Of a stretch of DNA of 38,440 nucleotides, positions 1,624-38,065 are shown one piece after another; the stretch's first letter is position 1, and every line of letters begins with the position of its first letter. The notes below the pieces were generated by a model. It made no database searches. It saw only the letters and a list, made by a program, of their open reading frames with translations, and was not told where the DNA came from. Source of the stretch: Bacteroidales bacterium (lineage in GTDB: Bacteria; Bacteroidota; Bacteroidia; Bacteroidales; UBA932); assembly GCA_017617495.1 (NCBI GenBank), contig JAFZWD010000049.1, positions 1-38,440 on the forward strand, read 5' to 3'. The translations under genes and the position numbers were made by a program.

Positions 1624-1634
1624 AGAGCGGAGGG

Positions 1635-1659
1635 ATTGCCGGTCGGGGCCGGCAATGAC
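1635..1659 (+). repeat. Family I palindromic repeat, single hairpin, intergenic
   Basis: Arms attgccgg (1635-1642) and ccggcaat (1649-1656) around a 6-nt loop, followed by gac. It fills half of the 45-nt gap between lpxA (stop at 1669) and the WbqC-like gene (start at 1623). Same core as the copies at 10573, 19715 and 33229. Confidence 0.85.
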
Positions 1660-1668
1660 GTCGAAAGG

Positions 1669-2481
1669 CTATTCGACAAAACCCTTCTCGTGGCCGTCGT
1701 TCGCACGGACGATACCGCGCTTGGAATTCTGCACGAAATTCAGGATCTCATCGCGCTCTGCGCTGGGAGCAAAACCCTCGCGGATCTTGGCGCAGGCGTC
1801 GGAGATGTTCGCACCCTGGAAATAAAGGGTGTCGTAGATGTCCTTGATATTGCGGATGGCATCGGCATCGAAACCGCGGCGGCGCAGGCCGACCAGGTTG
1901 ATGCCGGCATAGCAGATGGGATCGCGGGCGCAGAGGGAGAACGGAGGGATGTCCTTGTTGACCTTGCTGCCGCCGCCCACCATTGCATGCTTGCCGATGC
2001 GCGAGAACTGATGCACCACGGAACCGCCGCCGATGATGGCCCAGTCGTCCACGTCGGTCTCGCCGGCGATGCCGACATAACTGACGAGGATGCAATGGTT
2101 GCCGACACGGCAGTCGTGAGCAACATGCACGTAGGACATTATGAGGGTGTTGTCGCCCACCTTGGTGACGCCCTTTCCGCTGGCCTTGGTGCCGCGGTTG
2201 ATGGTGGCGCACTCACGGATGGTGACATTGTTGCCGATTTCCACCCAGGTAACCTCGCCTTCGAACTTGAGGTCCTGCGGGATGGCGCCGATGACGGCAC
2301 CGGGGAAAATTTCGCAACCGGAACCGATCTTCACATACGAGAAGATGGTGGCGTGGGGAAGAATCTTGGTGCCCTCGCCGATTTCCACATTATCGTCGAT
2401 GAACGCGTAGGGTCCGACTTCTACGGAGTCCGCGAGCTTCGCGTTGGGGCTGACAGTTGCAAGAGGATGAATTTTTGCCAT
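1669..2481 (-). CDS. lpxA: UDP-N-acetylglucosamine O-acyltransferase (LpxA)
   Basis: First step of lipid A synthesis: moves a 3-hydroxyacyl chain from ACP to the 3-OH of UDP-GlcNAc in the cytoplasm. The protein has 270 residues, close to the usual 255-265. It shows the left-handed beta-helix hexapeptide repeats (IHPLATVSPNAKLADSVEVG, IGEGTKILPHATI), the IGAIPQDLKF signature, and the AHDCRVGNHCILVSYVGIAGE segment carrying the catalytic His. The start at 2481 (MAKIHPLATVS) is chosen over an upstream ATG at 2589 because it matches family N-termini and lies 1 nt after the lpxC stop, which implies tight translational coupling. Order lpxD-lpxC-lpxA as in other Bacteroidota. Confidence 0.97.
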   Translation of the reverse strand: MAKIHPLATVSPNAKLADSVEVGPYAFIDDNVEIGEGTKILPHATIFSYVKIGSGCEIFPGAVIGAIPQDLKFEGEVTWVEIGNNVTIRECATINRGTKASGKGVTKVGDNTLIMSYVHVAHDCRVGNHCILVSYVGIAGETDVDDWAIIGGGSVVHQFSRIGKHAMVGGGSKVNKDIPPFSLCARDPICYAGINLVGLRRRGFDADAIRNIKDIYDTLYFQGANISDACAKIREGFAPSAERDEILNFVQNSKRGIVRANDGHEKGFVE

Positions 2482-2482
2482 T

Positions 2483-3379
2483 TTAAATAAGTTTTTGGAC
2501 GGCCTTCGCCGTATTGGTGTTGATAGTGTGGCCAGGTTTGTACGCTGTGATATGGGCGCGGAGATAGCCTCCGGCGAGGCGCATATCACCTATGAGGTCG
2601 AGCAGCTTGTGGCGTCCGCACTCGTTGGGGAAGCGGAGCACCAGGTTGCTCAGATATCCTTCGGGGGTAACCTTGAGCAGCGGCTGGCCGAAGAGGCGGG
2701 CCATCTGCTCGAGGGTCGCATCGTCCACCGGGTGCTCGACAACGACTATTGCGTTGTCAACGTCGCCGCCCTTCACAAGACCCTGGGCGGCAAGATACTG
2801 CACTTCGTGGAAGAAGCAGAAAGTACGGCAGGGCGCCACCTCGGCGGCATAGGGAGTATGCTCGTCCCAGTGGGCGGTCTGCACTCCCAGCACGCGGGAG
2901 CCGAAATCTACCGTAATATCGTATGAAAGCTCGTCGGCGGGGGTAACCTTCACCCACGAGCCGCTCTTCTCGTCCTTGATTTCTATCTCTTCGGGGACGG
3001 TGAAATACCTGCGCTCCGCTTTCTGCTCCTGAAGTCCGTCGGGGACGATGGCCTCGGCATAGGGTTTGGCGCTGCCGTCGAGGATAGGCACCTCGCCGTT
3101 GTCCAGTTCGACCACGGCGTTGTCCACTCCGAGGCCGGTAAAGGCCGACATCAGATGCTCGATGGTGGAAACGAATGCCTCACCCTTGGAAATGAGGGTG
3201 CAGCGCGCAGTATTGCTCACGTTCTCCGCAAGGGCGGGAATCTGCACGCCAAGGTCGGTACGCACGAAAACGACGCCGGTATTCTCGGCCGCAGGCTTCA
3301 GGGTCATATGCGTATAAACGCCGGTATGAAGGCCCTTGCCTTCGAAGAAATATTCCTTTTTTAGAGTCTGCTGATTCAT
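2483..3379 (-). CDS. lpxC: UDP-3-O-acyl-N-acetylglucosamine deacetylase (LpxC), without FabZ domain
   Basis: Zinc deacetylase of the committed step of lipid A synthesis. The 298-residue protein carries the metal and catalytic residues: E74-H75 (TIEHLMSA), H257 and D261 (HKLLD), and H284 (KPGH). In most Bacteroidota lpxC is fused in frame to the dehydratase fabZ (about 460 residues). Here the protein ends soon after the last catalytic motif (NTNTAKAVQKLI) with a TAA, and lpxA starts 1 nt later, so there is no room for FabZ. Start at 3379 (MNQQTLKKEYFFEGKGLH), as an upstream ATG at 3400 lies before the -7-like box at 3396-3389. LpxC function is secure. Confidence 0.97.
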   Translation of the reverse strand: MNQQTLKKEYFFEGKGLHTGVYTHMTLKPAAENTGVVFVRTDLGVQIPALAENVSNTARCTLISKGEAFVSTIEHLMSAFTGLGVDNAVVELDNGEVPILDGSAKPYAEAIVPDGLQEQKAERRYFTVPEEIEIKDEKSGSWVKVTPADELSYDITVDFGSRVLGVQTAHWDEHTPYAAEVAPCRTFCFFHEVQYLAAQGLVKGGDVDNAIVVVEHPVDDATLEQMARLFGQPLLKVTPEGYLSNLVLRFPNECGRHKLLDLIGDMRLAGGYLRAHITAYKPGHTINTNTAKAVQKLI

Positions 3380-8852: not shown

Positions 8853-9905
8853 ATGAAAAAGGTATTTTCGATTATCGCACTTCTGAGCACCTGCGCATTT
8901 GCATACGCCCAGGACGCACAGCAGGCAGCCGCCGACGCGGCAGCCGAAATCGCCAATGCTCCCAAGGAAGAGGCTGCGGCACCCAAGCCCAAGTACTGGA
9001 CTAGTTCCGTGGAGGTGGGTCTCGGCCTCAACCAGACCTATTTCGACAACTGGGCTTCCGGCGGATTCAACAACGTGAACTTCACCAGCTCGCTGGACGC
9101 AAAGGCCGACTATGCCAAGAAGCTCGCCAGCTGGAACAACCGACTGCAGATGCAGTATGCATTCCTCTGGTCCGAGGACAAGGAAGGCATCATCCAGAAG
9201 AGCAACGACGTGGTGTATTTCCAGAGCAAGTTCGGTTACAAGACCGGCGAGGGCTCCAAGTGGAGCTACACCGCTTCCTACGACTTCCGTTCGCAGTTCA
9301 GCAGCGGCTACACCTACAACGCCCCCGACAAGACCAACCCCGCGCTTGACACCTGGAAGAAGGCACGCGTGCTCAAGTCCGGTTTCCTCTCCCCCGCCTA
9401 CAACAATCTGGCACTCGGTATGGAGTGGGTCCCGAACAAATGGTTCAGCATCAACATTGCACCTATCGCGGGTAGTATCACCCAGGTGGACATCGCCGAG
9501 CTCCGCAAGAACTACGGCATGGAGCTCAAGAGCCGTTACGAGAATCCCAAGACTCTCGCCGACACGCTCGCAATCTCCAACGGCACCGCCTACAAGTCCA
9601 GCAAGATGCAGTTCGGTGGTCAGCTCAAGGCCAACCTCAAGTTCACTGTCAACGACAACTTCACTTTCGAGAGCCAGCTCACCCTCTTCTCCGACTATCT
9701 CGACAAGCCGCAGAACCTGCGCGTCAACTGGGATACCGGCATCGCCTGGCAGCTCTCCAAGTACCTCAAGCTCAGCGCAAACACCTGGGTAATCTACGAC
9801 CCCAACGTGCTGATTGCCGCCAAGAACAATCCTGACGACCTCGCTCCGCGCACCCAGTTCAAGGAATTCCTTTCCTTCAGCTTCACCTACACCTTCAAGA
9901 GATAG
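8853..9905 (+). CDS. DUF3078 family outer-membrane protein
   Basis: A 350-residue protein with a signal peptide (MKKVFSIIALLSTCAFAYAQ), an Ala/Glu/Lys-rich linker of about 25 residues, and then a barrel-like domain beginning YWTSSVEVGLGLNQTYFDNWASGGFNN, the signature of DUF3078. It continues with many alternating strands and ends FLSFSFTYTFKR. The family is confined to Bacteroidota and has no settled function. Its TAG stop shares a base with the GTG start of tilS, so the two are translationally coupled. Confidence 0.9.
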   Translation: MKKVFSIIALLSTCAFAYAQDAQQAAADAAAEIANAPKEEAAAPKPKYWTSSVEVGLGLNQTYFDNWASGGFNNVNFTSSLDAKADYAKKLASWNNRLQMQYAFLWSEDKEGIIQKSNDVVYFQSKFGYKTGEGSKWSYTASYDFRSQFSSGYTYNAPDKTNPALDTWKKARVLKSGFLSPAYNNLALGMEWVPNKWFSINIAPIAGSITQVDIAELRKNYGMELKSRYENPKTLADTLAISNGTAYKSSKMQFGGQLKANLKFTVNDNFTFESQLTLFSDYLDKPQNLRVNWDTGIAWQLSKYLKLSANTWVIYDPNVLIAAKNNPDDLAPRTQFKEFLSFSFTYTFKR

Positions 9906-11227
9906 TGAAGATTCTGCTTGCAGTGAGCGGAGGCATCGATTCGATGTACCTCGCACATAGGGCTCCCGAACTTTTTCCGGGAGCCTCTTTTGCTGTGGCC
10001 CACTGCAATTTCCGCCTTCGCGGCGATGAGTCCGACGGCGACGAGGCCTTTGTGCGGGAGTTCTGCGCTTCCGCCGGGTTGGAGTGTTTTGTAAAGCAGT
10101 TTGATACGGAGGCCTACGCCTCGGAGCACGGCATAAGCATCGAGATGGCCGCCCGCGACCTCCGCTACGCCTGGTTTGCAGAGCTTTGCAGCGCGCAGGG
10201 CTTTGATGCCGCGGCGGTGGCGCACAATGCCGACGACAATGCCGAAACGCTGATACTCAACCTGTTGCGCGGCACCGGCACCCGCGGCCTCCGCGGTATG
10301 TCGGCCGACGTTACCGACGGGCGCGGGGTGCGTATCCTGCGGCCTATGCTCGGCGTTTCCCGCGAGGAGATCCGCGGATGGATGAGCTCGAACGGCTTTG
10401 CCTGGCGCGAGGACAGCAGCAATGCTTCCGGCGAGTACAAGCGCAACCGCATCCGCTCCGAAGTCTTCCCCGTCTTCCGCGAGCTCAACCCTTCGTTCCT
10501 CGAGACTTTTGCCGCCGACATGGCGCATATCGCCCAGGTCGACGCCATTGCGGAAGACTACTTCTGGGCGGGATTGCCGGTCGTGGCCGGCAATGACGGT
10601 CCGTCATGCCCGACCGGCCTCCCGTCATGCCGGACCCGATCCGGCATCTCCTTCCCCATCGGGCCCCTGCACGCTCTGAAGCACTGGCGTTACGTGCTCT
10701 ACCGCTTTCTGGAGCCCTACGGCTTCGACTCCGGCACCGTAGATTCCCTGGGCGACCTCCTCGCCGCCTGGTCCGCCTCCCCTGCCGGCACGGTTACCCT
10801 CTCCGGCAAAACCTTCGAGGCGCCAGATTATATCGCAGTCACTTCGGCTTCGGAAATAATCGTATCAGCTAAGAAGGCGGGAACTGCTTCCCCTGGTTTT
10901 ACCACCAAAGTTTACGACAAGCCTTCTGATTTCAATCCGGTAGTGCCCGAAGGGACGTTGGTGGCGGATGCGGACAAACTGCCGCTGCCGTTGAAGGTCC
11001 GGCCCTGGCAGGCGGGCGACTGGATGGTGCCACTGGGCATGAAGGGCCGCAAGAAGCTGTCCGACCTTTTCGTGGACTTGAAATGGAACCTGCTGCAGAA
11101 GCAGGAGGCGCAGGTCGTCGAGCACCCGGACGGCAAACCAGGCCACGTTGCAGCGCTGCTCTGCGTCCGCATTGACGACAGCCTCAAGGTTGACGCCTCA
11201 ACAAAGAAAATCCTGGAAATAAGCTAA
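9905..11227 (+). CDS. tilS: tRNA(Ile)-lysidine synthetase with an in-frame repeat insertion
   Basis: Makes lysidine at the wobble position of the CAU-anticodon tRNA-Ile, so that it reads AUA. The 440-residue protein has the PP-loop SGGIDS at 8-13, HCNFRLRGDESD (33-44), AHNADDNAET (106-115), and a C-terminal domain with RPWQAGDWMVPLGMKGRKKLSD. The GTG start is chosen because the next ATG (9944) would cut through the PP-loop; GTG overlaps the preceding stop by one base. Residues about 224-250 (VVAGNDGPSCPTGLP...) are encoded by a family I palindromic repeat and look like an insertion between two helices of the linker region. The 3' end overlaps the convergent endonuclease gene by 4 nt. Confidence 0.95.
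   Translation: MKILLAVSGGIDSMYLAHRAPELFPGASFAVAHCNFRLRGDESDGDEAFVREFCASAGLECFVKQFDTEAYASEHGISIEMAARDLRYAWFAELCSAQGFDAAAVAHNADDNAETLILNLLRGTGTRGLRGMSADVTDGRGVRILRPMLGVSREEIRGWMSSNGFAWREDSSNASGEYKRNRIRSEVFPVFRELNPSFLETFAADMAHIAQVDAIAEDYFWAGLPVVAGNDGPSCPTGLPSCRTRSGISFPIGPLHALKHWRYVLYRFLEPYGFDSGTVDSLGDLLAAWSASPAGTVTLSGKTFEAPDYIAVTSASEIIVSAKKAGTASPGFTTKVYDKPSDFNPVVPEGTLVADADKLPLPLKVRPWQAGDWMVPLGMKGRKKLSDLFVDLKWNLLQKQEAQVVEHPDGKPGHVAALLCVRIDDSLKVDASTKKILEIS
10573..10647 (+). repeat. Family I palindromic repeat inside tilS
   Basis: First hairpin attgccgg/ccggcaat (10573-10580, 10587-10594; loop of 6), then gac, a partial half-hairpin gtcatgcccgaccgg, then a second hairpin atgccgga/tccggcat (10627-10634, 10640-10647). 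Length and reading frame keep tilS open, and the right arm is read as A-G-N-D. Confidence 0.85.
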
Positions 11228-14069: not shown

Positions 14070-14918
14070 TTACAAGCGTACATCAACCGTATATTCACTG
14101 CTGCCGTATCCTCCCCAGAATCCCAGGGCTCCATGCATATTGGTAGCGACGTTCTCTGTAACAGGGAAGAAAGGGTTGCGGGCGAAGCCGCTCACATCGT
14201 CATAACTTGCCCAATATCTGTAGGATGCGCTGTCTATCGTACAGAACTTGACATGGACCTTCTCCCCAAGGCGGAAAAGCGGCTGGCGGTATTTTTCCAG
14301 GATGCTCCATCCCCTCACCACCGGCACGCTCAGATACTGCCCCTGCACGGTCTCGTCGTCCACGGCCCCCAGGAGGCTCGGTGCCCAGTACGTATTCACA
14401 CCCTCAACCATTGTAAAGCATTTGTAATAATCCTTTGTGGCCGGATTGTCACGGAAACAGGCAGTAATGGTATAAAGCGTATCGGTGCGCTCCGAGACAT
14501 GCACCGCAAGGCTGTCCAGACTCACAGGAGCAGGAACCGTGGTCTCCGCCCAGGCATTGATGCCGGGACAGTTCACTTCCAGCCGGTATTTCTTGCCGGC
14601 CTCTCCTGTGATTGCATCCGTAGTATATACATAAGGAGGGAAGTAATTATCGTCGCGACGGCCCTCGAGCTGTACGCGGGTCTGTCCGTCAATTACGTAA
14701 ACCCGCGCATATTTTACCACCTTCGATGCCACTTCCTCATCGTCCTGCACGGATCCGGTAGGACTGACGCTCTTGCTTACCAGCACCATGGGATGTCCTC
14801 CGGCGTCGATCCATCCGTCCACGACGAGCGGGGTGGACGGCGCCCTGTACTCCAGGTCGGGCTCACAGGCGCACACAAGTGCCGCAACGGCAAAGATTAT
14901 GAATCGGATTCCTCTCAT
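14070..14918 (-). CDS. DUF4249 lipoprotein, copy 1
   Basis: A 282-residue lipoprotein (signal ending ALVCAC) of the DUF4249 family, recognised by STPLVVDGWIDAGGHPMVLVSKS near the N-terminus, and YFPPYVYTTDAITGEAGKKYRLEV. Such proteins sit next to TonB-dependent receptors in Bacteroidota and are thought to be surface or periplasmic partners, though their job is not established. Its ATG overlaps the TGA of the receptor upstream by one base. It is a close paralogue of the gene at 16915-17760, with the conserved ending FFPVTEN...MHGALGFWGGYG. Confidence 0.88.
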   Translation of the reverse strand: MRGIRFIIFAVAALVCACEPDLEYRAPSTPLVVDGWIDAGGHPMVLVSKSVSPTGSVQDDEEVASKVVKYARVYVIDGQTRVQLEGRRDDNYFPPYVYTTDAITGEAGKKYRLEVNCPGINAWAETTVPAPVSLDSLAVHVSERTDTLYTITACFRDNPATKDYYKCFTMVEGVNTYWAPSLLGAVDDETVQGQYLSVPVVRGWSILEKYRQPLFRLGEKVHVKFCTIDSASYRYWASYDDVSGFARNPFFPVTENVATNMHGALGFWGGYGSSEYTVDVRL

Positions 14919-16906
14919 CAGAAGCGGTAGAAATAACCTATGGAAGGCAGGAACATTACCTTATAGAATATCGAACAGTATGTAAACTTGCGGCCCTCTT
15001 CGACATTGACCATATAGAAAATGTCGTTTTTGCGGCCGGTAGCGTTGAAAAGCGAGAAATTAACCCCGTGCCCGCGCCCTCCGGATATGCGTTTGAAGTA
15101 ATAATTCGCGCTGAGATCCAGTCGGATATACGGCTTGAAACGGCCTGCATTATGCCCTCCGAAATTGCAGAGGAGCTGACCCTGGGTAACGTACAACGAT
15201 TCCACAGCAGTGAAGGGCGTGCCGCTTGCAGCCACAAAGCTTCCGCTCAGCTCCCATTTGCGCACAGCCCAGCTGAGCATCGCGTTGAATTCATGGATAC
15301 GTTCGTGATTTGCAGGATACACGTCCGGGTACGCCGGATCGTCGAAGCTTCGCAGTGACCGTCCGACAGTGTAGCCAAGCCAGCCGGTAAGCTTCCCGGC
15401 CTGTTTCCGGAACAATATGCTCAGGCCGTAGTTTCGGCCTTTCCCTTTCAGGAGGGCGTTTTCCAGTGCATAGTCTTCCCTCACGAAATCCAGCACGCTG
15501 CCTTTGTATTCTATCTGGTTGGACAGTTCGCGCCAATAAAGTTCGGCACTCAGGCGATACGCTCCTTCGTCCAGGTCCTTATCATAACCAAGACGGCCGT
15601 ATATGGAGGACTGGGGCTTGTTGTATTTCCCTGCAAGAAGCCAGAACTCATACGGAAGCGCAACGCTGCTGAGGCCCGTCTGCGAAAGGAACTGCCTGCG
15701 GATTCCGGCCGAGGCGCTTATCTGCCCGGGGCGACCTGCATTGAAGGATGCATCAATCTCCGGGCTGAAATATGGATGCAATGCCGTTCCGTCGTGCCAG
15801 AGTTGCCCCTTGGCGGTTGCCGAGACGTTCCACTGCACATTGTAGACGATTGCATAACACAGGGCAAGGCTGGCCTCGACGCCCTTCTGCAACTCCTTTG
15901 GACTGGTCTGGCGGAAGTAACCGCCGACCGAAGATATCCTCTGCGGCCGGCCCCGGTGAATCCCCAGATCCGCCTGCAGTTTCCATCTGCCGATGCCGAG
16001 GTCCGCTTTATATCCCAGCGTCCTGATGCCCGAGGGCATCTTTATTTTGAAAAAGTCATGTTTCACATCCATTCCCAGCCCGAAGGATGTATGATAAAGG
16101 CTCTGTTTGAGGGACCATCCATCCAGTTGACGCTTCCAGTGAAGGGCCCCCATCATATTGTGCCAGTCCATGTCTACATCCATGCCGTTTTCAAAGCTGC
16201 CATAGCCCAGATCGTCCATCCCTGCGTAGGAGTCAAGCCAGAGGATATCCTGTTCCGAGGGACGCCAGAGAAATGTCAGGTTCGCGTCACCGAAACCATA
16301 TTTGAAGGTATTGCCGTCCAGCTTAAGATAACTCCCGTAGAGGAGGTTTATGTAGGATTTACGCAACGACACGAACGCTGCCGCCCTGTTTCCGAGAGGA
16401 AAGGAGAAACTGCCTTCGCTGGAAATCAGTCCGGAGGATACGCTGCCGTGAACCTTGTCCGGCATCTCATCCGGCAGCCTCATCTCGATTGCTCCTCCCA
16501 GGCGGTTGGCACCCTTTTCACCGGTGCGGTATTCCATCGACTTGTAGTGTTTCGGAATGAACACCGAGAACAGTCCGAGAAGATGGGATGCCCCATAAAT
16601 GGGGACTCCTTCGGCGGACACTATGCAGTGCTGATGCTCGGTTCCCTGTATATGGATGCCGGCGTCCAGTTCCGACCCTGTGGTGACACCGGGAAGCATC
16701 CGCACGAAGCGAAGCGGATCCGAGTTGCCCATCAGGGACGGGGCACGGAGCAGGAGTTCGGTTCGGACATTGCTTTCCATGCCGATTCCCGGTACTATAA
16801 GCGAACGGTTGCCTACCGCCGACACCACGGTGCTGTCCAATTTTTCCTGGGCTTCCGCCGACAGGCAGAGGAGCAGCAGCAATATGGCCGGCAAGCGCTT
16901 AGTCAT
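14918..16906 (-). CDS. TonB-dependent outer-membrane receptor, copy 1
   Basis: A 662-residue receptor with a signal peptide (MTKRLPAILLLLLCLSAEAQ), a short segment EKLDSTVVSA that may hold the TonB box, a plug domain (residues about 35-150) and a barrel ending in Phe (PSIGYFYRF). It lacks the carboxypeptidase-like N-terminal domain common in SusC proteins. In the plug, where many receptors read GSPDQNLILLDGVPVY, this one reads E90-H-Q-H-C94 followed by IVSAEGVPIYGASHLLGLFS. Start at 16906 is set by the signal peptide; an earlier in-frame ATG at 17056 lies inside the upstream gene. Paired with the DUF4249 gene downstream; substrate unknown. Confidence 0.92.
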   Translation of the reverse strand: MTKRLPAILLLLLCLSAEAQEKLDSTVVSAVGNRSLIVPGIGMESNVRTELLLRAPSLMGNSDPLRFVRMLPGVTTGSELDAGIHIQGTEHQHCIVSAEGVPIYGASHLLGLFSVFIPKHYKSMEYRTGEKGANRLGGAIEMRLPDEMPDKVHGSVSSGLISSEGSFSFPLGNRAAAFVSLRKSYINLLYGSYLKLDGNTFKYGFGDANLTFLWRPSEQDILWLDSYAGMDDLGYGSFENGMDVDMDWHNMMGALHWKRQLDGWSLKQSLYHTSFGLGMDVKHDFFKIKMPSGIRTLGYKADLGIGRWKLQADLGIHRGRPQRISSVGGYFRQTSPKELQKGVEASLALCYAIVYNVQWNVSATAKGQLWHDGTALHPYFSPEIDASFNAGRPGQISASAGIRRQFLSQTGLSSVALPYEFWLLAGKYNKPQSSIYGRLGYDKDLDEGAYRLSAELYWRELSNQIEYKGSVLDFVREDYALENALLKGKGRNYGLSILFRKQAGKLTGWLGYTVGRSLRSFDDPAYPDVYPANHERIHEFNAMLSWAVRKWELSGSFVAASGTPFTAVESLYVTQGQLLCNFGGHNAGRFKPYIRLDLSANYYFKRISGGRGHGVNFSLFNATGRKNDIFYMVNVEEGRKFTYCSIFYKVMFLPSIGYFYRF

Positions 16907-16914
16907 ATCGACCG

Positions 16915-17760
16915 TTATTGGATGGTAATCTGATAGAAGCTTGCGCCGTAGCCGCCCCAGAAGCCGAGGGCGCCGTGGACGTTGCAGGCGGCGTTTTCGG
17001 TGACGGGGAAGAAGGGATTGCGCGCAAACGCGCTGATGTCGTCGTAGGTCCGCCAATACTCATAGGAGGCCGCGTCGACCGTGCAGAACTTAACATGGAC
17101 TGTTTCCCCTTCGCGGAAGAGCGGCTGGCGATACTTTTCAAGGATGCCCATGCCGCGGGCGACGGGGATCTTGAGATACTGCCCCTGCACCGTTTCGTCA
17201 TCCACGATACCCATGAAGGAGGAATTCCAGGAGGTGTTCAGGCCCTCGACCATCGTGAATACCTTATAATAATCACGCGTAGCGGGATTGTCCTTGAGAT
17301 AGGCGTGAAGCGTGTAGAGCGAATCGTAACGGCTGGATACAGTCGCCACAAGGCTGTCCAGCTGCACCGGCGCGGGTATGGAGGTCTCCGCCCAGGCGTT
17401 GATGCCCGGCGAAACGACCTCCAGGCGGTAGGTCTTGCCCGCTTCGCCCGTAATGGCATCAGTAGTATAGATGTAAGGAGGGAAATAACTGTCGTCGCGG
17501 CGCCCTTCCAACTCCACCCGGGTAGTGCCGTCACTCACGAAAACATGCGCATTGCCCACCATCTTCGAAGCGACGGTAGCTGCTTCCTGAACCACCTCGG
17601 TGGGGCTCAGGGTCTTGCTCACCATCACCACGGGATGACCGCCCGCATCTATCCAGCCGTCCACAACAAGAGGCGTCGTGGATGCGGTATAATCCGCCTC
17701 CATGCAGCCGGCCGCTAAGGCCGCTGCAATCAGGAGCATTATATGACGGAAGATACGCAT
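16915..17760 (-). CDS. DUF4249 lipoprotein, copy 2
   Basis: A 281-residue lipoprotein (signal ending LAAGC) closely similar to the copy at 14070-14918 throughout: STPLVVDGWIDAGGHPVVMVSKT, YFPPYIYTTDAITGEAGKTYRLEV, DDETVQGQYLKIPVARG, ALGFWGGYG. It starts 1 nt after the receptor stop at 17762 and ends 8 nt before the next receptor start. The pair arrangement suggests a tandem duplication of a two-gene unit. Function as for copy 1: presumed partner of the receptor, not established. Confidence 0.88.
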   Translation of the reverse strand: MRIFRHIMLLIAAALAAGCMEADYTASTTPLVVDGWIDAGGHPVVMVSKTLSPTEVVQEAATVASKMVGNAHVFVSDGTTRVELEGRRDDSYFPPYIYTTDAITGEAGKTYRLEVVSPGINAWAETSIPAPVQLDSLVATVSSRYDSLYTLHAYLKDNPATRDYYKVFTMVEGLNTSWNSSFMGIVDDETVQGQYLKIPVARGMGILEKYRQPLFREGETVHVKFCTVDAASYEYWRTYDDISAFARNPFFPVTENAACNVHGALGFWGGYGASFYQITIQ

Positions 17761-17761
17761 A

Positions 17762-19780
17762 CTAGAAACGGTGGAAATAGCCTATCGAGGGGAGGAACAT
17801 TATCTTGTAGGACATCGAACGGTACGAGAACCTGCGGCCTTCCTCCAGCATTATGCGGTAGAAGACATCGTTCTTGCGGCCGGTGGCATTGTAGAGCGAG
17901 AAGTTCAGGCCGTTTTCGCGCCCTCCGGGACGGCGGTGGAAGAAATAATTTGCGCTGAGATCCAGCCGTACGTACGGCCGGAACCGTCCGCCGTTGTGGC
18001 CGCCGAAATTGGTAATCAGCTGATTCTGGGAAACATACATCGACTCCACTGCGGTGAACGGCGTGCCGCTTGCCGCCACGAAACTGCCGCTCAGCTCCCA
18101 TTTGCGGGTGTCCCAGCTGAACATTGCATTGAACTCATGGATGCGCTCGTGGCACGAAGGATATGTCTTGGGGTACGCCGGATTGTCGAAGCTGCGCAGG
18201 CTCCTGCCAAGCGAGTAACCGATCCATCCAGTCAGGCGTCCGGCCTGCTTGCGCAACAGCAGCGACACCCCGTAATTACGCCCGTCGCCCCTCAGCAGGG
18301 AGCTCTCCAGTGCATAATCTTCCCGGACAAAATCCAGGATGCTGCCCTTGTATTCTATCTGGCCGTCCAGCTCGCGCCAGTAGAGTTCAGCGCTCAGGCG
18401 CCAGACTCCCTCGTCCATATCCAGATCGTACCCGAGCCTGCCGAATAACGAGGACTGGGGTTTGCTGTATTTGCCCGCCAGAAGCCAGAATTCGTATGGC
18501 AGCGCCACGCTGGTCAGTCCCGTCTGCGACAGGAACTGGCGGCGTATTCCCGCGGAAGCGTTTATCTTTCCCCACTCCCCGAGGTTGCAGGAAGCGTCCA
18601 GCTCCGGGCTGAAGTAAGGGTGCAGCGAGGAGCCGTCGTGCCAGAGCTGGCCCTTGGCTGTCGCAGACATCTTCCAGACCAGGCCGTCGATAAACTGATA
18701 TCGCAGTGCGAGAGAACCCTCGACGGCATTCTGTATCTCTTCGGGGCTCTCCTGGCTGAAATAGCCCCCCACCGAAGTGATTCTCTGCGGCCGCGCCCGG
18801 TGGATGCCCAGATCCGCCAGTGCCTGCCAGCGCCCCGCCCTGAGGTCTGCCTTGTAGCCGCTGGTCCCGATGCCGGAAGGCACCTTCAGGGTAAAGAAAT
18901 CGTGCCGTACGTCCAGGTTTATGCCAAGGCGCGTATGGTAAAGGCTCTGCTTCAGGCTCCAGTCGCCGGTGTCATGTTTCCAATGGAGCGCGCCCATGGC
19001 ATTATACCAGTCCAGGCTGATGTCCATGCCGTTCTCGTAGCTCGAATAGCCAAGGTTGTCCAGGCCCCCGTACGCGTCCAGCCATATTCTGTCCTTGTCG
19101 GATGGCCTCCAGAGGAAGGAGAAGTTGGCGTCGCCGAAACCGTAATTGAAGGAGTTGTCCTCCAGTTTCATATAGTCCCCGTAAAGGAGGTTCATGTAGG
19201 ATTTCCGGAGCGAAAGGAACGCGGCGGCTTTGCTGCCCAGGGGCGCCGCGATACTGCCTTCGGTGGACACCAGACCCGACGATACCGAGCCTTTAAGCCG
19301 CTCGGGCACGGCATCCGGCAGCTTCATGTCGATGGAGCCTCCAAGGCGGTTGGCCCCCTTTTCGTCCACCTTGTAATCCATCGACGCGTAATGCGTCGGG
19401 ATAAATACCGAGAAGAGTCCGAGCAGATGCGAAGCACCGTAGATGGGCACGCCCTCGGCGGAAACTATGCAGTGCTGATGCTCGGTGCCCTGGATATGGA
19501 TGCCCGAGTCGAGTTCTGAGCCGGTGGACACGCCTGGGAGCATTCGCACGAATCGCAGCGGATCGGCATTACCCAGGATAGACGGAGCCTTCAGCAGCAG
19601 CTCGGTGCGCACGTTACTCTCGGTGCCTACACCGGGAATGATCAGGGAAGTGTTGCGCGCGGCAGAAACAACGGTACTGTCCAAAGTGGTGACTGTGTCC
19701 CTTGGCGCAAAGTCATTGCCGGCCAGACCGGCAATCTCAGGCGCAAACAGCGCCAGCGCTATGAAAAGGCGCCTGATCAT
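17762..19780 (-). CDS. TonB-dependent outer-membrane receptor, copy 2, with repeat at signal peptide
   Basis: A 672-residue paralogue of the receptor at 14918-16906, alignable end to end: LDSTVVSA, ESNVRTELLL.APS, RFVRMLPGV, IHIQGTEHQHCIVSAEGVPIYG. The EHQHC plug motif is conserved (residues 100-104). It is exactly 10 residues longer before LDSTVV, and those residues include IAGLAGND (16-23), encoded by a family I palindromic repeat that now forms the signal-peptide cleavage region. The ATG overlaps the stop of the small secreted protein gene upstream (ATGA), so it is probably in the same operon. Ends GYFHRF as expected for a barrel. Confidence 0.92.
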   Translation of the reverse strand: MIRRLFIALALFAPEIAGLAGNDFAPRDTVTTLDSTVVSAARNTSLIIPGVGTESNVRTELLLKAPSILGNADPLRFVRMLPGVSTGSELDSGIHIQGTEHQHCIVSAEGVPIYGASHLLGLFSVFIPTHYASMDYKVDEKGANRLGGSIDMKLPDAVPERLKGSVSSGLVSTEGSIAAPLGSKAAAFLSLRKSYMNLLYGDYMKLEDNSFNYGFGDANFSFLWRPSDKDRIWLDAYGGLDNLGYSSYENGMDISLDWYNAMGALHWKHDTGDWSLKQSLYHTRLGINLDVRHDFFTLKVPSGIGTSGYKADLRAGRWQALADLGIHRARPQRITSVGGYFSQESPEEIQNAVEGSLALRYQFIDGLVWKMSATAKGQLWHDGSSLHPYFSPELDASCNLGEWGKINASAGIRRQFLSQTGLTSVALPYEFWLLAGKYSKPQSSLFGRLGYDLDMDEGVWRLSAELYWRELDGQIEYKGSILDFVREDYALESSLLRGDGRNYGVSLLLRKQAGRLTGWIGYSLGRSLRSFDNPAYPKTYPSCHERIHEFNAMFSWDTRKWELSGSFVAASGTPFTAVESMYVSQNQLITNFGGHNGGRFRPYVRLDLSANYFFHRRPGGRENGLNFSLYNATGRKNDVFYRIMLEEGRRFSYRSMSYKIMFLPSIGYFHRF
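19715..19735 (-). repeat. Family I palindromic repeat at the signal peptide of TonB receptor copy 2
   Basis: Arms attgccgg and ccggcaat (19715-19722 and 19728-19735) around a 5-nt loop, read on the minus strand as I-A-G-L-A-G-N-D. The paralogue at 14918-16906 lacks it, so it is a true insertion or replacement in this gene. Confidence 0.85.
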
Positions 19781-27750: not shown

Positions 27751-27778
27751 GAGATGCCCGATCAGGTCGGGCATGACG
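27751..27778 (-). repeat. Family I palindromic repeat (second hairpin) in the tRNA-Gln leader
   Basis: Arms atgcccga/tcgggcat (27754-27761 and 27767-27774), loop of 5. Read on the minus strand, 28 consecutive bases are identical to the second hairpin of the copy in the methyltransferase gene (33255-33282). Confidence 0.85.
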
Positions 27779-27791
27779 AGAAAGGCAATTT

Positions 27792-27862
27792 TGAGGTATG
27801 GTGTAATGGTAGCACTACAGATTTTGGTTCTGTCTGCCCAGGTTCGAATCCTGGTACCTCAA
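27792..27862 (+). tRNA. tRNA-Gln, anticodon TTG
   Basis: A 71-nt cloverleaf: acceptor TGAGGTA/TACCTCA, D-arm GTG/CAC, anticodon stem ACAGA/TCTGT with loop TTTTGGT (anticodon TTG), T-arm CCAGG-TTCGAAT-CCTGG, discriminator A. CCA is not encoded. Confidence 0.95.
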
Positions 27863-27863
27863 C

Positions 27864-32346: not shown

Positions 32347-33654
32347 ATGGATCTGCAGGAGTTCATAGCGGAACACTTGAACGACGACCCCGCCTCCCTG
32401 GTGCTCCAGCGGCACCGCTGGCCCGGCATCGATGTGGCCCTTGCGGCCGAGGGCATCGCCGCAAAGCGCAAACTCCGGAGCAAAGTGCCCGAGTGGTATG
32501 CCGACGAGCGCCTGCTCTTCCCCTCCGCCCTCTCGGCCGAACAGTGCAGCAGCACCGTCACAGCCCGGCACAAGGCGCATCTGGCGCTGGAATTCGGAGG
32601 CACGCGCATAGCAGATCTTACCGGTGGCCTGGGGGTTGACGCCTGGCAGTTCGCCCTCGCCGGAGCGACCGTCCTTTACAACGAGATGAACCCCGCCCTG
32701 GCCGATGCCGCAAAGCGGAATTTCGACCTGCTCGGCTGCTCCGGGGTGAGCGTTTCCAACTGCGAAATCACCTCCGGGAACCTGGGCGCAATACTGGACG
32801 GTTTCCGGCCGGACCTGGTGTATCTCGATCCCGCCCGCAGGGGTTCCGGCGGCCGAAAAGTCTTCCGCCTGGAGGACTGCTCGCCCAATCTTCTTGAGAT
32901 TCAGGACATAGTGCTCGGCCGGGGCATCCGCCTCATGGCCAAGCTCTCCCCCATCGCCGATATCAGCCTGCTGGGCAGGACTTTACATAATCTTAAGGAG
33001 ATACACATAGTCGAGGCCTCCGGCGAGTGCAAGGAGCTGCTCGCCCTCTGCGAACCGGGTTTCGACGGGGAGTACACGGTCGTTGCGGAGATTGCCGGTC
33101 AAGGCGACGCTGTCGCCAGGCAGCCCTTCGGCTGCATTATTAGGGGCGCCGCCCCTAATGTACCCCGCCGGTGCCTTGCACCGGTTGAAATGCCTTTCGT
33201 TTTTTCTTTTCTTCCATCCGAGGAGAAGATTGCCGGTCAAGCCGGCAATGACACCGTCATGCCCGACCTGATCGGGCATCTCTTCGCCCCCGGCCCGGCG
33301 CTGATGAAAAGCGGCGCCTTCAAGCTCATCGCGCAACGCTTCGGCCTCCGCCCCCTGGGCCCTTCCGCGCATCTTTATCTGGTTCCCGAAAACGCCGGCA
33401 CAGGCGCCTTTGCTCCTTTTGGAAAACTATTTGAAATTCAGGAAGTTGCACCCCTCAGCAAAGCATCGCTCAAACGCTTTGCCGCCCTCTGGCCCGACGC
33501 CGAAATCACCGCCCGCGCCCTGCCTCTCTCCAGCGACGAACTCCGCCGCAAAATGGCCCTCCGCGGTGGCGGCAGCACTCACATCTTCGCCTTCGGCACC
33601 CCCGGCGGCAAATACCTCATCGCCGCCAAGATTCCTTCGCTTCGCTCGGATTGA
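32347..33654 (+). CDS. Class I SAM-dependent methyltransferase with THUMP-like domain, carrying several repeat insertions
   Basis: A 435-residue protein. The Rossmann core has IADLTGGLGVDAWQFALAG (SAM-binding), YNEMNPALADAAKRN (acidic loop) and LVYLDPARRGSGGRK (DPPY-like catalytic motif), so it is probably an RNA or protein methyltransferase. The C-terminal part (PALMKSGAFKLIAQRFGL, SAHLYL) matches the THUMP-like domain. Between them, about residues 248-312, the coding sequence is built from palindromic repeats (33091-33282). The last codons (KIPSLRSD) and the stop fall inside another repeat (33629-33657). The target is unknown, and whether the insertions leave it active is untested. Confidence 0.88.
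   Translation: MDLQEFIAEHLNDDPASLVLQRHRWPGIDVALAAEGIAAKRKLRSKVPEWYADERLLFPSALSAEQCSSTVTARHKAHLALEFGGTRIADLTGGLGVDAWQFALAGATVLYNEMNPALADAAKRNFDLLGCSGVSVSNCEITSGNLGAILDGFRPDLVYLDPARRGSGGRKVFRLEDCSPNLLEIQDIVLGRGIRLMAKLSPIADISLLGRTLHNLKEIHIVEASGECKELLALCEPGFDGEYTVVAEIAGQGDAVARQPFGCIIRGAAPNVPRRCLAPVEMPFVFSFLPSEEKIAGQAGNDTVMPDLIGHLFAPGPALMKSGAFKLIAQRFGLRPLGPSAHLYLVPENAGTGAFAPFGKLFEIQEVAPLSKASLKRFAALWPDAEITARALPLSSDELRRKMALRGGGSTHIFAFGTPGGKYLIAAKIPSLRSD
33091..33184 (+). repeat. Chain of palindromes, including family II, inside the methyltransferase gene
   Basis: In order: a family I left arm attgccgg (33091-33098) without its partner; ggcgac/gtcgcc (33103-33108, 33112-33117); gcagcc/ggctgc (33120-33125, 33130-33135); attaggggc/gcccctaat (33139-33147, 33151-33159); ccggtgc/gcaccgg (33168-33174, 33178-33184). 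The last two form a family II element, 43 of 45 bases identical (reverse strand) to 38021-38065. Confidence 0.85.
33229..33282 (+). repeat. Full two-hairpin family I repeat inside the methyltransferase gene
   Basis: Hairpin 1 attgccgg/ccggcaat (33229-33236, 33242-33249), spacer gacaccgtc, hairpin 2 atgcccga/tcgggcat (33259-33266, 33272-33279), then ctc. Read in frame as I-A-G-Q-A-G-N-D-T-V-M-P-D-L-I-G-H-L. The cleanest complete copy in the window. Confidence 0.88.
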
Positions 33655-37963: not shown

Positions 37964-38020
37964 TCCTGGCGCCCTTTCTTCCGCGTAAGGCAAAGGGCCG
38001 TCACCGGAGCGAAGCGACTA

Positions 38021-38065
38021 CCGGTGCAAGGCACCGGCGGGGTACATTAGGGGCAGAGCCCCTAA
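38021..38065 (+). repeat. Family II palindromic repeat, intergenic
   Basis: Two hairpins: ccggtgc/gcaccgg (38021-38027, 38031-38037) and ttaggggc/gcccctaa (38047-38054, 38058-38065), joined by cggggtaca. Matches the copy inside the methyltransferase gene on the other strand at 43 of 45 bases. The surrounding 37964-38116 has no gene. Confidence 0.85.

Follow-up and report, generated by a model that had tools for sequence, protein, structure and literature searches.

Rickettsia offers the best-known examples of palindromes that lie in frame within housekeeping genes, and genome decay is frequently put forward there as the background. In the portions available to us of a 2024 review of MITEs (PMC10969869), the Rickettsia palindromic elements (RPEs) are given a length of about 150 bp, nearly half of 44 copies are placed in ORFs, and a similar process in other prokaryotes is called "conceivable". 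A second group of described repeats is the CGTC-tagged REPs, which carry a CGTC or TGTC head, an 8–9 bp stem starting with AT, a loop of 4–5 nt and a tail that is mostly CCA; head-to-head (HH) dimers predominate, tail-to-tail (TT) dimers are rare, clusters are likewise rare, and most copies are intergenic (Di Nocera 2013, PMC3733652, in the sections accessible to us). The same sections describe these REPs as lacking an association with a transposase, note intragenic members in the form of RPE-4 and RPE-6 of R. conorii, and already list UvrA, DNA polymerase I and TruB as REP hosts in other phyla.

Here we analyze a window of 38,440 nucleotides, the whole of one contig (C19), from a gut-type Bacteroidales genome of 1.51 Mb in 61 contigs that is 74% complete. 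The initial annotation proposed a palindromic unit of two hairpins at five places in the window, and copies are indeed present at all five: ATTGCCGG..CCGGCAAT occurs four times (0.00 expected in 100 shuffles) and ATGCCCGA..TCGGGCAT twice (again 0.00 expected in shuffles). The fixed pair itself was not borne out. The repeating unit is a single hairpin of 27–28 nt, GTCAT-stem-loop-stem-ATCTC or -ATCCC, mostly with a C in front, and positions 33226–33282 hold a head-to-head dimer of it. The two 27-mers of this dimer (33226–33253, minus strand, tail ATCTT; 33255–33282, plus strand) are read as KIAGQAGND and VMPDLIGHL in the frame of a PG_1098-type methyltransferase gene (32347–33654, plus strand), which has PG_1098 ferredoxin-like and THUMP-like domains and a structural relative in PDB 3ll7; the dimer lies directly ahead of the ferredoxin-like domain. 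The tilS gene (tRNA lysidine(34) synthetase; 9905–11227, plus strand) holds, between its N- and C-domain matches, a 28-mer at 10570–10598 (minus strand, read GLPVVAGND) and, head-to-head with it, a 27-mer at 10623–10650 (plus strand). The second intact hairpin at this site is ATGCCGGA..TCCGGCAT, and a truncated copy lies between the two. The third host is a receptor-like protein of 672 residues (17762–19780, minus strand) without a Pfam or NCBIfam match, the N-terminus of which we take to be TonB-plug-like; here a 27-mer at 19711–19738 (plus strand, its GTC head antisense to the host) is read as EIAGLAGND right after a signal-peptide-like start. The last two copies are outside protein genes. 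One is a 28-mer at 1632–1660 (minus strand), intergenic and just downstream of an lpxA-type gene (1669–2589, minus strand); the other, a 27-mer at 27751–27778 (minus strand), is in the leader of a downstream tRNA-Gln (TTG) gene (27792–27863, plus strand). The latter unit stands close behind the promoter-like TAccTTTG, which presumably represents a Bacteroidetes-like promoter motif, upstream of the tRNA.

An alignment of 26 units gives the consensus CGTCATTGCCGRC-loop-YCGGCAATCTC with an 8-bp stem. Both sides change in four of the eight stem pairs, 207 of 208 cells are paired, and the first two pairs are A-U and U-A in all 26 units, AC in place of AT at the stem start being seen in a few of the 109 genomic matches to a covariance model. 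Among 75 perfect-stem units, chosen with an nGTC head as a requirement, the unpaired head is CGTC in 67, TGTC in 7 and AGTC in 1. Their tails (CTC 51, CCC 16, CTG 4, CTT 3, CTA 1) were left free, but most of the stretches had been picked for a CYC tail; a CCA tail appears once, at C24:3112, among the covariance-model matches printed. The hairpins come in two sizes, 27-mers with a 5-nt loop and 28-mers with a 6-nt loop that is mostly CNNCGA. Counted with the tag, the 109 matches divide into 60 of 28 nt, 45 of 29 nt and 4 others, and the loops have as a rule 5 nt in the 28-nt class and 6 nt in the 29-nt class; at least one member of the latter, C5:673, has a 5-nt loop and owes its length to the tail. 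Close pairs number nine among the 76 units of a strict set (GTCAT and AT[CGT]NC ends, at least 6 of 8 stem matches), eight head-to-head and one tail-to-tail.

These features resemble those of the CGTC REPs in the head, the AT-first 8-bp stem, the 5-nt loop of the 27-mers and the HH dimers, and the two groups also share some genic copies, the lack of a linked transposase and a presence in Bacteroidetes (PMC3733652, accessible sections). They differ in the tail, which is CTC or CCC instead of mostly CCA (a weak criterion, as the paper says "most"), in the 6-nt loops that prevail in the 29-nt class (45 of 109 copies), in the share of genic copies, and in the local clustering of the 28-mers. The hairpins fit the CGTC REP superfamily by their head, stem and type of dimer, in part by their loop, and not by their tail. 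Like the enterobacterial RU sequences, they are short, putatively mobile elements with a sequence that is read within genes, and unlike them they are far from the 103–168 bp of RU elements, which were described gene by gene (PMC2759123, in the part accessible to us).

The prediction that copies would exceed expectation genome-wide was upheld. The exact first hairpin is found at 34 places in the genome against none for a reversed-pattern control, and the looser GTCATN{13,18}ATCYC matches 103 times, as opposed to 8 times in the control; some of these 103 lack a stem and are due to chance. At E<=0.01 the covariance model returns 109 matches, from an assembly that is 74% complete. Insertion into protein genes holds for 81 of these, which lie in a coding frame (78 according to our own codon-usage gene caller, run on the stretches examined, and three by a two-sided coding test), and not for the other 28, the two window copies at 1632–1660 and 27751–27778 included. 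In the strict set, the gene caller placed 18 of the 76 units outside genes, and three of these with coding signal on both sides were reassigned, which leaves 61 genic units after rereading; one unit, C58:45036, is genic as a C-terminal extension in the set of 76 and was counted outside genes in the set of 109. Since the coding share of the DNA examined around the strict units is 0.864 of 268,762 bases, 61 genic units of 76 represent a mild depletion from genes.

The genic share depends on size class: 42 of the 45 copies of 29 nt lie in genes, compared with 37 of the 60 copies of 28 nt (Fisher p 1.8e-4). The 6-nt loop of the 28-mers is usually free of the TGA that is common in 5-nt loops, and this provides one extra open frame. 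The 28-mers are also clustered, with 14 pairs at 101–2000 bp where uniform placement predicts 1.4, compared with 2 pairs of 27-mers where 2.1 are expected, and five strict units lie in the neighboring rsmE and apbE genes.

The hosts are unrelated to one another. A Pfam family match was obtained for 20 of 20 proteins in a first set, including a TsaB/TsaD-type protein, ApbE, DNA gyrase/topoisomerase IV subunit A, a PurL-type protein, TruB, RNase H, an FGGY kinase, a peptidase U32, an M20 peptidase and a beta-galactosidase. A second set added DNA polymerase I, an RsmF-type methyltransferase, CYTH, a second U32, MatE and a formyltransferase, one of its eight hosts from outside the window having no match and one (OmpA) falling under the cut-off. 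ATP synthase gamma and subunit A came from a third set, in which L130 and L133 match weakly only, and LpxK, a 2-hydroxyacid dehydrogenase, a P-type ATPase, UvrA and an aminotransferase from a fourth, the sixth member of which (AsmA-like) is under the cut-off. Other hosts are aspartate-semialdehyde dehydrogenase (ASD), IleRS, RsmE, FtsY and an MFS transporter.

Several lines of evidence bear on whether these copies were inserted or are ancestral to their genes. First, in ASD the peptide VIAGGDRQS sits between conserved blocks and the motif is missing from 80 of 80 aligned relatives; among those named, the eight closest come from uncultured Bacteroidales or Bacteroidia, with sheep-omasum and roe-deer-rumen isolates represented. 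The corresponding stretch has 77 residues in the source genome and 61–68 in the 80 relatives, a net gain of about 12 residues relative to L149, L151 and L153. Second, the nearby paralogue of the receptor-like gene (14918–17056, minus strand) lacks the peptide EIAGLAGND and so provides an empty counterpart within the window. Third, the three REP peptides of RsmE are missing from 12 of 12 aligned relatives, several of which have other inserts at those sites, and a net gain of about 9 residues is inferred for site 1. The closest relative's rsmE (G116, L136) carries a repeated peptide, PHSREVAxxR, at two of the RsmE sites that hold REPs in the source genome. Two further hosts are less clear. The IleRS peptide is missing from 29 of 29 relatives and amounts to a net gain of about 7 residues over the closest one, and the loop varies in length; the FtsY peptide fills a linker of nearly equal length in PDB 6cy1. 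Because the IleRS site is naturally length-variable and the FtsY linker is nearly unchanged in length, neither is a clean insertion.

Of the 29 same-genus relatives aligned with the window methyltransferase, 28 have no hairpin, and neither this dimer nor a second insert (termed Family II, below) is present in PDB 3ll7. The exception is the methyltransferase of G044 (L089), which has a single hairpin, ATTGCCGGTCAGTCCGGCAATGAC, that shares codon position, orientation and frame (IAGQSGND) with the window copy but has no second half; G044 is a distant species of the same genus. Either an old shared insertion was lost elsewhere or one site was hit twice, and the shared codon weakens the view that copies are always new. 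Judged by their absence from nearly all homologues (ASD, methyltransferase, paralogue), the hairpin copies are insertions, as the initial annotation held, with G044 as the one exception. It could be supposed instead that these palindromes arose by chance, are ancestral coding sequence or are artefacts of assembly. Some palindromes do arise in GC-rich coding DNA, the genomes are metagenome assemblies to judge by related records, and the methyltransferase site is common to one relative; yet 0.00 copies are expected in shuffles, nearly all aligned relatives lack them, and matches recur across the genus. For the set as a whole this explanation is refuted, and we consider it exceedingly improbable.

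At least one match to the model is found in 80 of 121 genomes of the genus, the source genome included. Pattern counts in the relatives were rejected, since the matches listed from other species proved to be ordinary stretches that lack the stem, and the covariance model was used for this reason. Among the matches listed, with 62 candidates scored per genome, counts range from 1 to at least 68; fuller scoring at E<=0.001 gives 130 for G066, 45 for G085, 22 for G017 and 43 for G224, so that copy number across the genus runs from none found to over 100. In the 15 best-scoring loci of each, the units are genic in 22 of 24 cases in G066 (the 24 including one doubtful match) and in 9 of 17 in G085 (the 17 including two of another palindrome type). 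In the order, 14 of 149 genomes have a match, 13 besides the source genome. As named from sequence, truB-like and PG_1098-like genes of G085 (L232, L253) and a superoxide-dismutase-like gene of G066 (L238) carry REP units; truB and PG_1098 are hosts in the source genome as well as in G085.

The initial annotation had noted that all genic copies of the first hairpin in the window are read as A-G-N-D. This is correct for these three copies, in the sense of their genes, and does not extend to the genome, in which 21 of 61 genic units use frames of the -GND type. Frame use is nonetheless far from random: against a uniform distribution over open frames, the 61 units give a chi2 of 43.6, which 0 of 20000 random draws reach. 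The 27-mers prefer antisense frame 0 (EIADQVGND; 15 versus 6.6 expected) and the 28-mers sense frame 0 (VIAGxDRQS; 17 versus 6.9), and hardly any unit uses a frame that yields an H-C-R-x peptide (1 versus 6.6 and 0 versus 5.9). Frames of the H-C-R-x type occur a few times in G066 and G085. Thus, a bias exists and is not fixed to A-G-N-D. It is simply explained by selection on the predicted peptide, and a codon-phase preference at insertion would be a possible alternative source.

A comparison of sister species offers a view of turnover. G017 and G224 are 91.9% identical over a 4.9-kb IleRS locus. In a transporter-like gene that is 93.7% identical between them, G017 has a REP hairpin, read GIAGQAGND, and the matching loop of G224 has a different palindrome, GTCATCCTGAGCGAAACGAAGAATCC, also in frame; in the source genome a 28-mer (VIADPDRQSP) lies between the corresponding stretches of its MFS transporter, the correspondence being assigned by reading. 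Further REP sites are common to both species (L265/L278). An empty site at the nucleotide level was not found in this close pair, the two different repeats being its sole clear difference.

The strong frame bias raises the question of whether the hairpins are kept for a function, be it a structural role in the DNA or RNA of the gene or a useful peptide module, selected site by site. In keeping with this idea, stems are intact in 67 of the 76 strict units, UvrA, DNA polymerase I and TruB are hosts in other phyla too (PMC3733652, accessible sections), and G044 has its hairpin at the matching methyltransferase codon. Recent arrival alone, however, could leave stems intact. Moreover, the lack of relationship among the hosts, the different repeats at one site in sister species and the apparently intact genes of the relatives, most of which are without copies, all argue against site-by-site retention, and we judge such a function very unlikely. 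We favor instead the hypothesis that the hairpins are inserted repeats that persist where the reading frame stays open.

The hairpins are not the only palindromes in these genes. Two of the 109 REPs (L309:1982–2048 on C50 and L312:2056–2123 on C43) have an extra 39 nt in the loop, which are one and the same second palindrome (TGGGGCCCCCGCAAATT...AATTTGTGGGG); the hosts are lpxK and the 2-hydroxyacid dehydrogenase gene, and both insertions are in frame. This palindrome was not found elsewhere among the 313 loci examined. In a third REP the loop contains TTGCTGAGCCTGTCGAAGCA; the gene caller places this unit outside genes. The window methyltransferase also contains, in frame at 33140–33185, a second and unrelated palindromic repeat, Family II, and this segment is missing from 29 of 29 aligned relatives. 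The repeat (TTAGGGGC..GCCCCTAATGTACCCC with GCCGGTGCCTTGCACCGGT) is seen at 33140–33185 and 38020–38065 of the window and at C28:86031–86105 and C50:2255–2320. Protein-level matches suggest that it may be in frame in other ORFs as well. One reading of these patterns is that the 28-mer subtype is a palindromic element adapted to intragenic life and spreading locally, that REP loops act as docking sites for a second palindrome, and that together they would form a layered, protein-diversifying palindrome system in Bacteroidota; we put this forward tentatively, as a possibility that we rather doubt.

The initial annotation further suggested mobilization by a REP-associated tyrosine transposase. 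Under that proposal, a RAYT-type (Y1 tyrosine) enzyme of the host would recognize the hairpin and move dimers, that is, REPINs. Like REPINs, the dimers described here are two REP hairpins adjacent in inverted orientation; unlike REPINs and their RAYTs, they have a CGTC instead of a GTAG head, are mostly genic and have no cognate RAYT that we could find (PMC3116915 and PMC8049555, in the parts accessible to us). The genome does encode four Y1_Tnp proteins of about 300–320 residues with long C-terminal parts (L028, L029, L030, L031), and one of the genes is about 0.4 kb from a REP dimer within tsaB. However, three of the four match the RAYT model NF047646 at 30–46 bits, below its cut-off of 80, and the fourth has no score. 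Furthermore, the genes adjoin dispersed repeats other than the CGTC hairpin: L030 lies between ATCGATGCTCC hairpins, L029 and L031 have repeats on both sides, one copy being 0.4–1.2 kb away, and L028 has them on one side only. It is possible that all four are REPtron-like elements, and no cognate RAYT flanked by the hairpin was found among them. Y1 and REP counts show no correlation over 19 genomes (Spearman 0.21, p 0.40), in a comparison for which the genomes are incomplete, high REP counts are lower bounds and Y1 scores are weak. There are exceptions both ways, in that G001 and G014 bear REPs without a Y1 match and G009 and G010 bear Y1 genes without REP matches. Together with the reported lack of a transposase association for CGTC REPs (PMC3733652, accessible sections), these results count against the proposal despite the HH dimers, and we regard movement by the resident RAYT-like proteins as unlikely.

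The surroundings of the units were searched for a mover as well. Of 681 ORFs in their vicinity, the 20 that recur most often include no transposase, and no recurrent coding neighbor was found, the most frequent being dispersed DNA repeats and common families; neither the Y1 genes of the genome nor these neighbors yielded a mobilizing enzyme. Several intergenic REPs (L045, L033, L047, L053, L038, L067) are embedded in patchworks of dispersed repeats, each about 100–330 bp long, and some of these repeats resemble the flanks of the L029 Y1 gene.

We therefore propose, as a probable account, that the hairpins belong to the CGTC REP family, are mobilized in trans by an enzyme other than the resident RAYT-like proteins, and are kept where reading stays open. 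They would constitute one non-autonomous CGTC-tagged family of 28–29 nt with the tag, which may still be moving at present through a single-stranded hairpin intermediate. Copies would land genome-wide and hardly avoid genes; the genic survivors would be those that preserve the frame, often at length-variable sites of proteins such as linkers and loops, where they would be read as predicted short peptides, for example, EIADQVGND and VIAGxDRQS. The frame bias would then stem from purifying selection and not from target choice.

The likeness to the Rickettsia palindromic elements that had been pointed out at the outset stands: as with RPE-1, palindromes lie in frame in many unrelated housekeeping genes, and here they are missing from nearly all aligned homologues and are probably kept where reading stays open. 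The differences are in the host phylum and in the RPE length of about 150 bp (PMC10969869, accessible portions). In the literature searched, in which RPE work is represented through the accessible parts of PMC3733652 and PMC10969869, we found no report of mostly genic REPs in Bacteroidetes, and as far as that literature goes a Bacteroidota lineage with mostly genic copies, a gene-biased 28-mer subtype and palindromes nested in loops are new. In-frame palindromes match or exceed the Rickettsia scale in a Bacteroidales genus of many species. In this genus, the mover of CGTC REPs can be sought by comparing REP-rich with REP-free sister species, and the tolerance of proteins to insertions of 9–20 residues can be tested on dozens of natural cases for which unmodified relatives exist.
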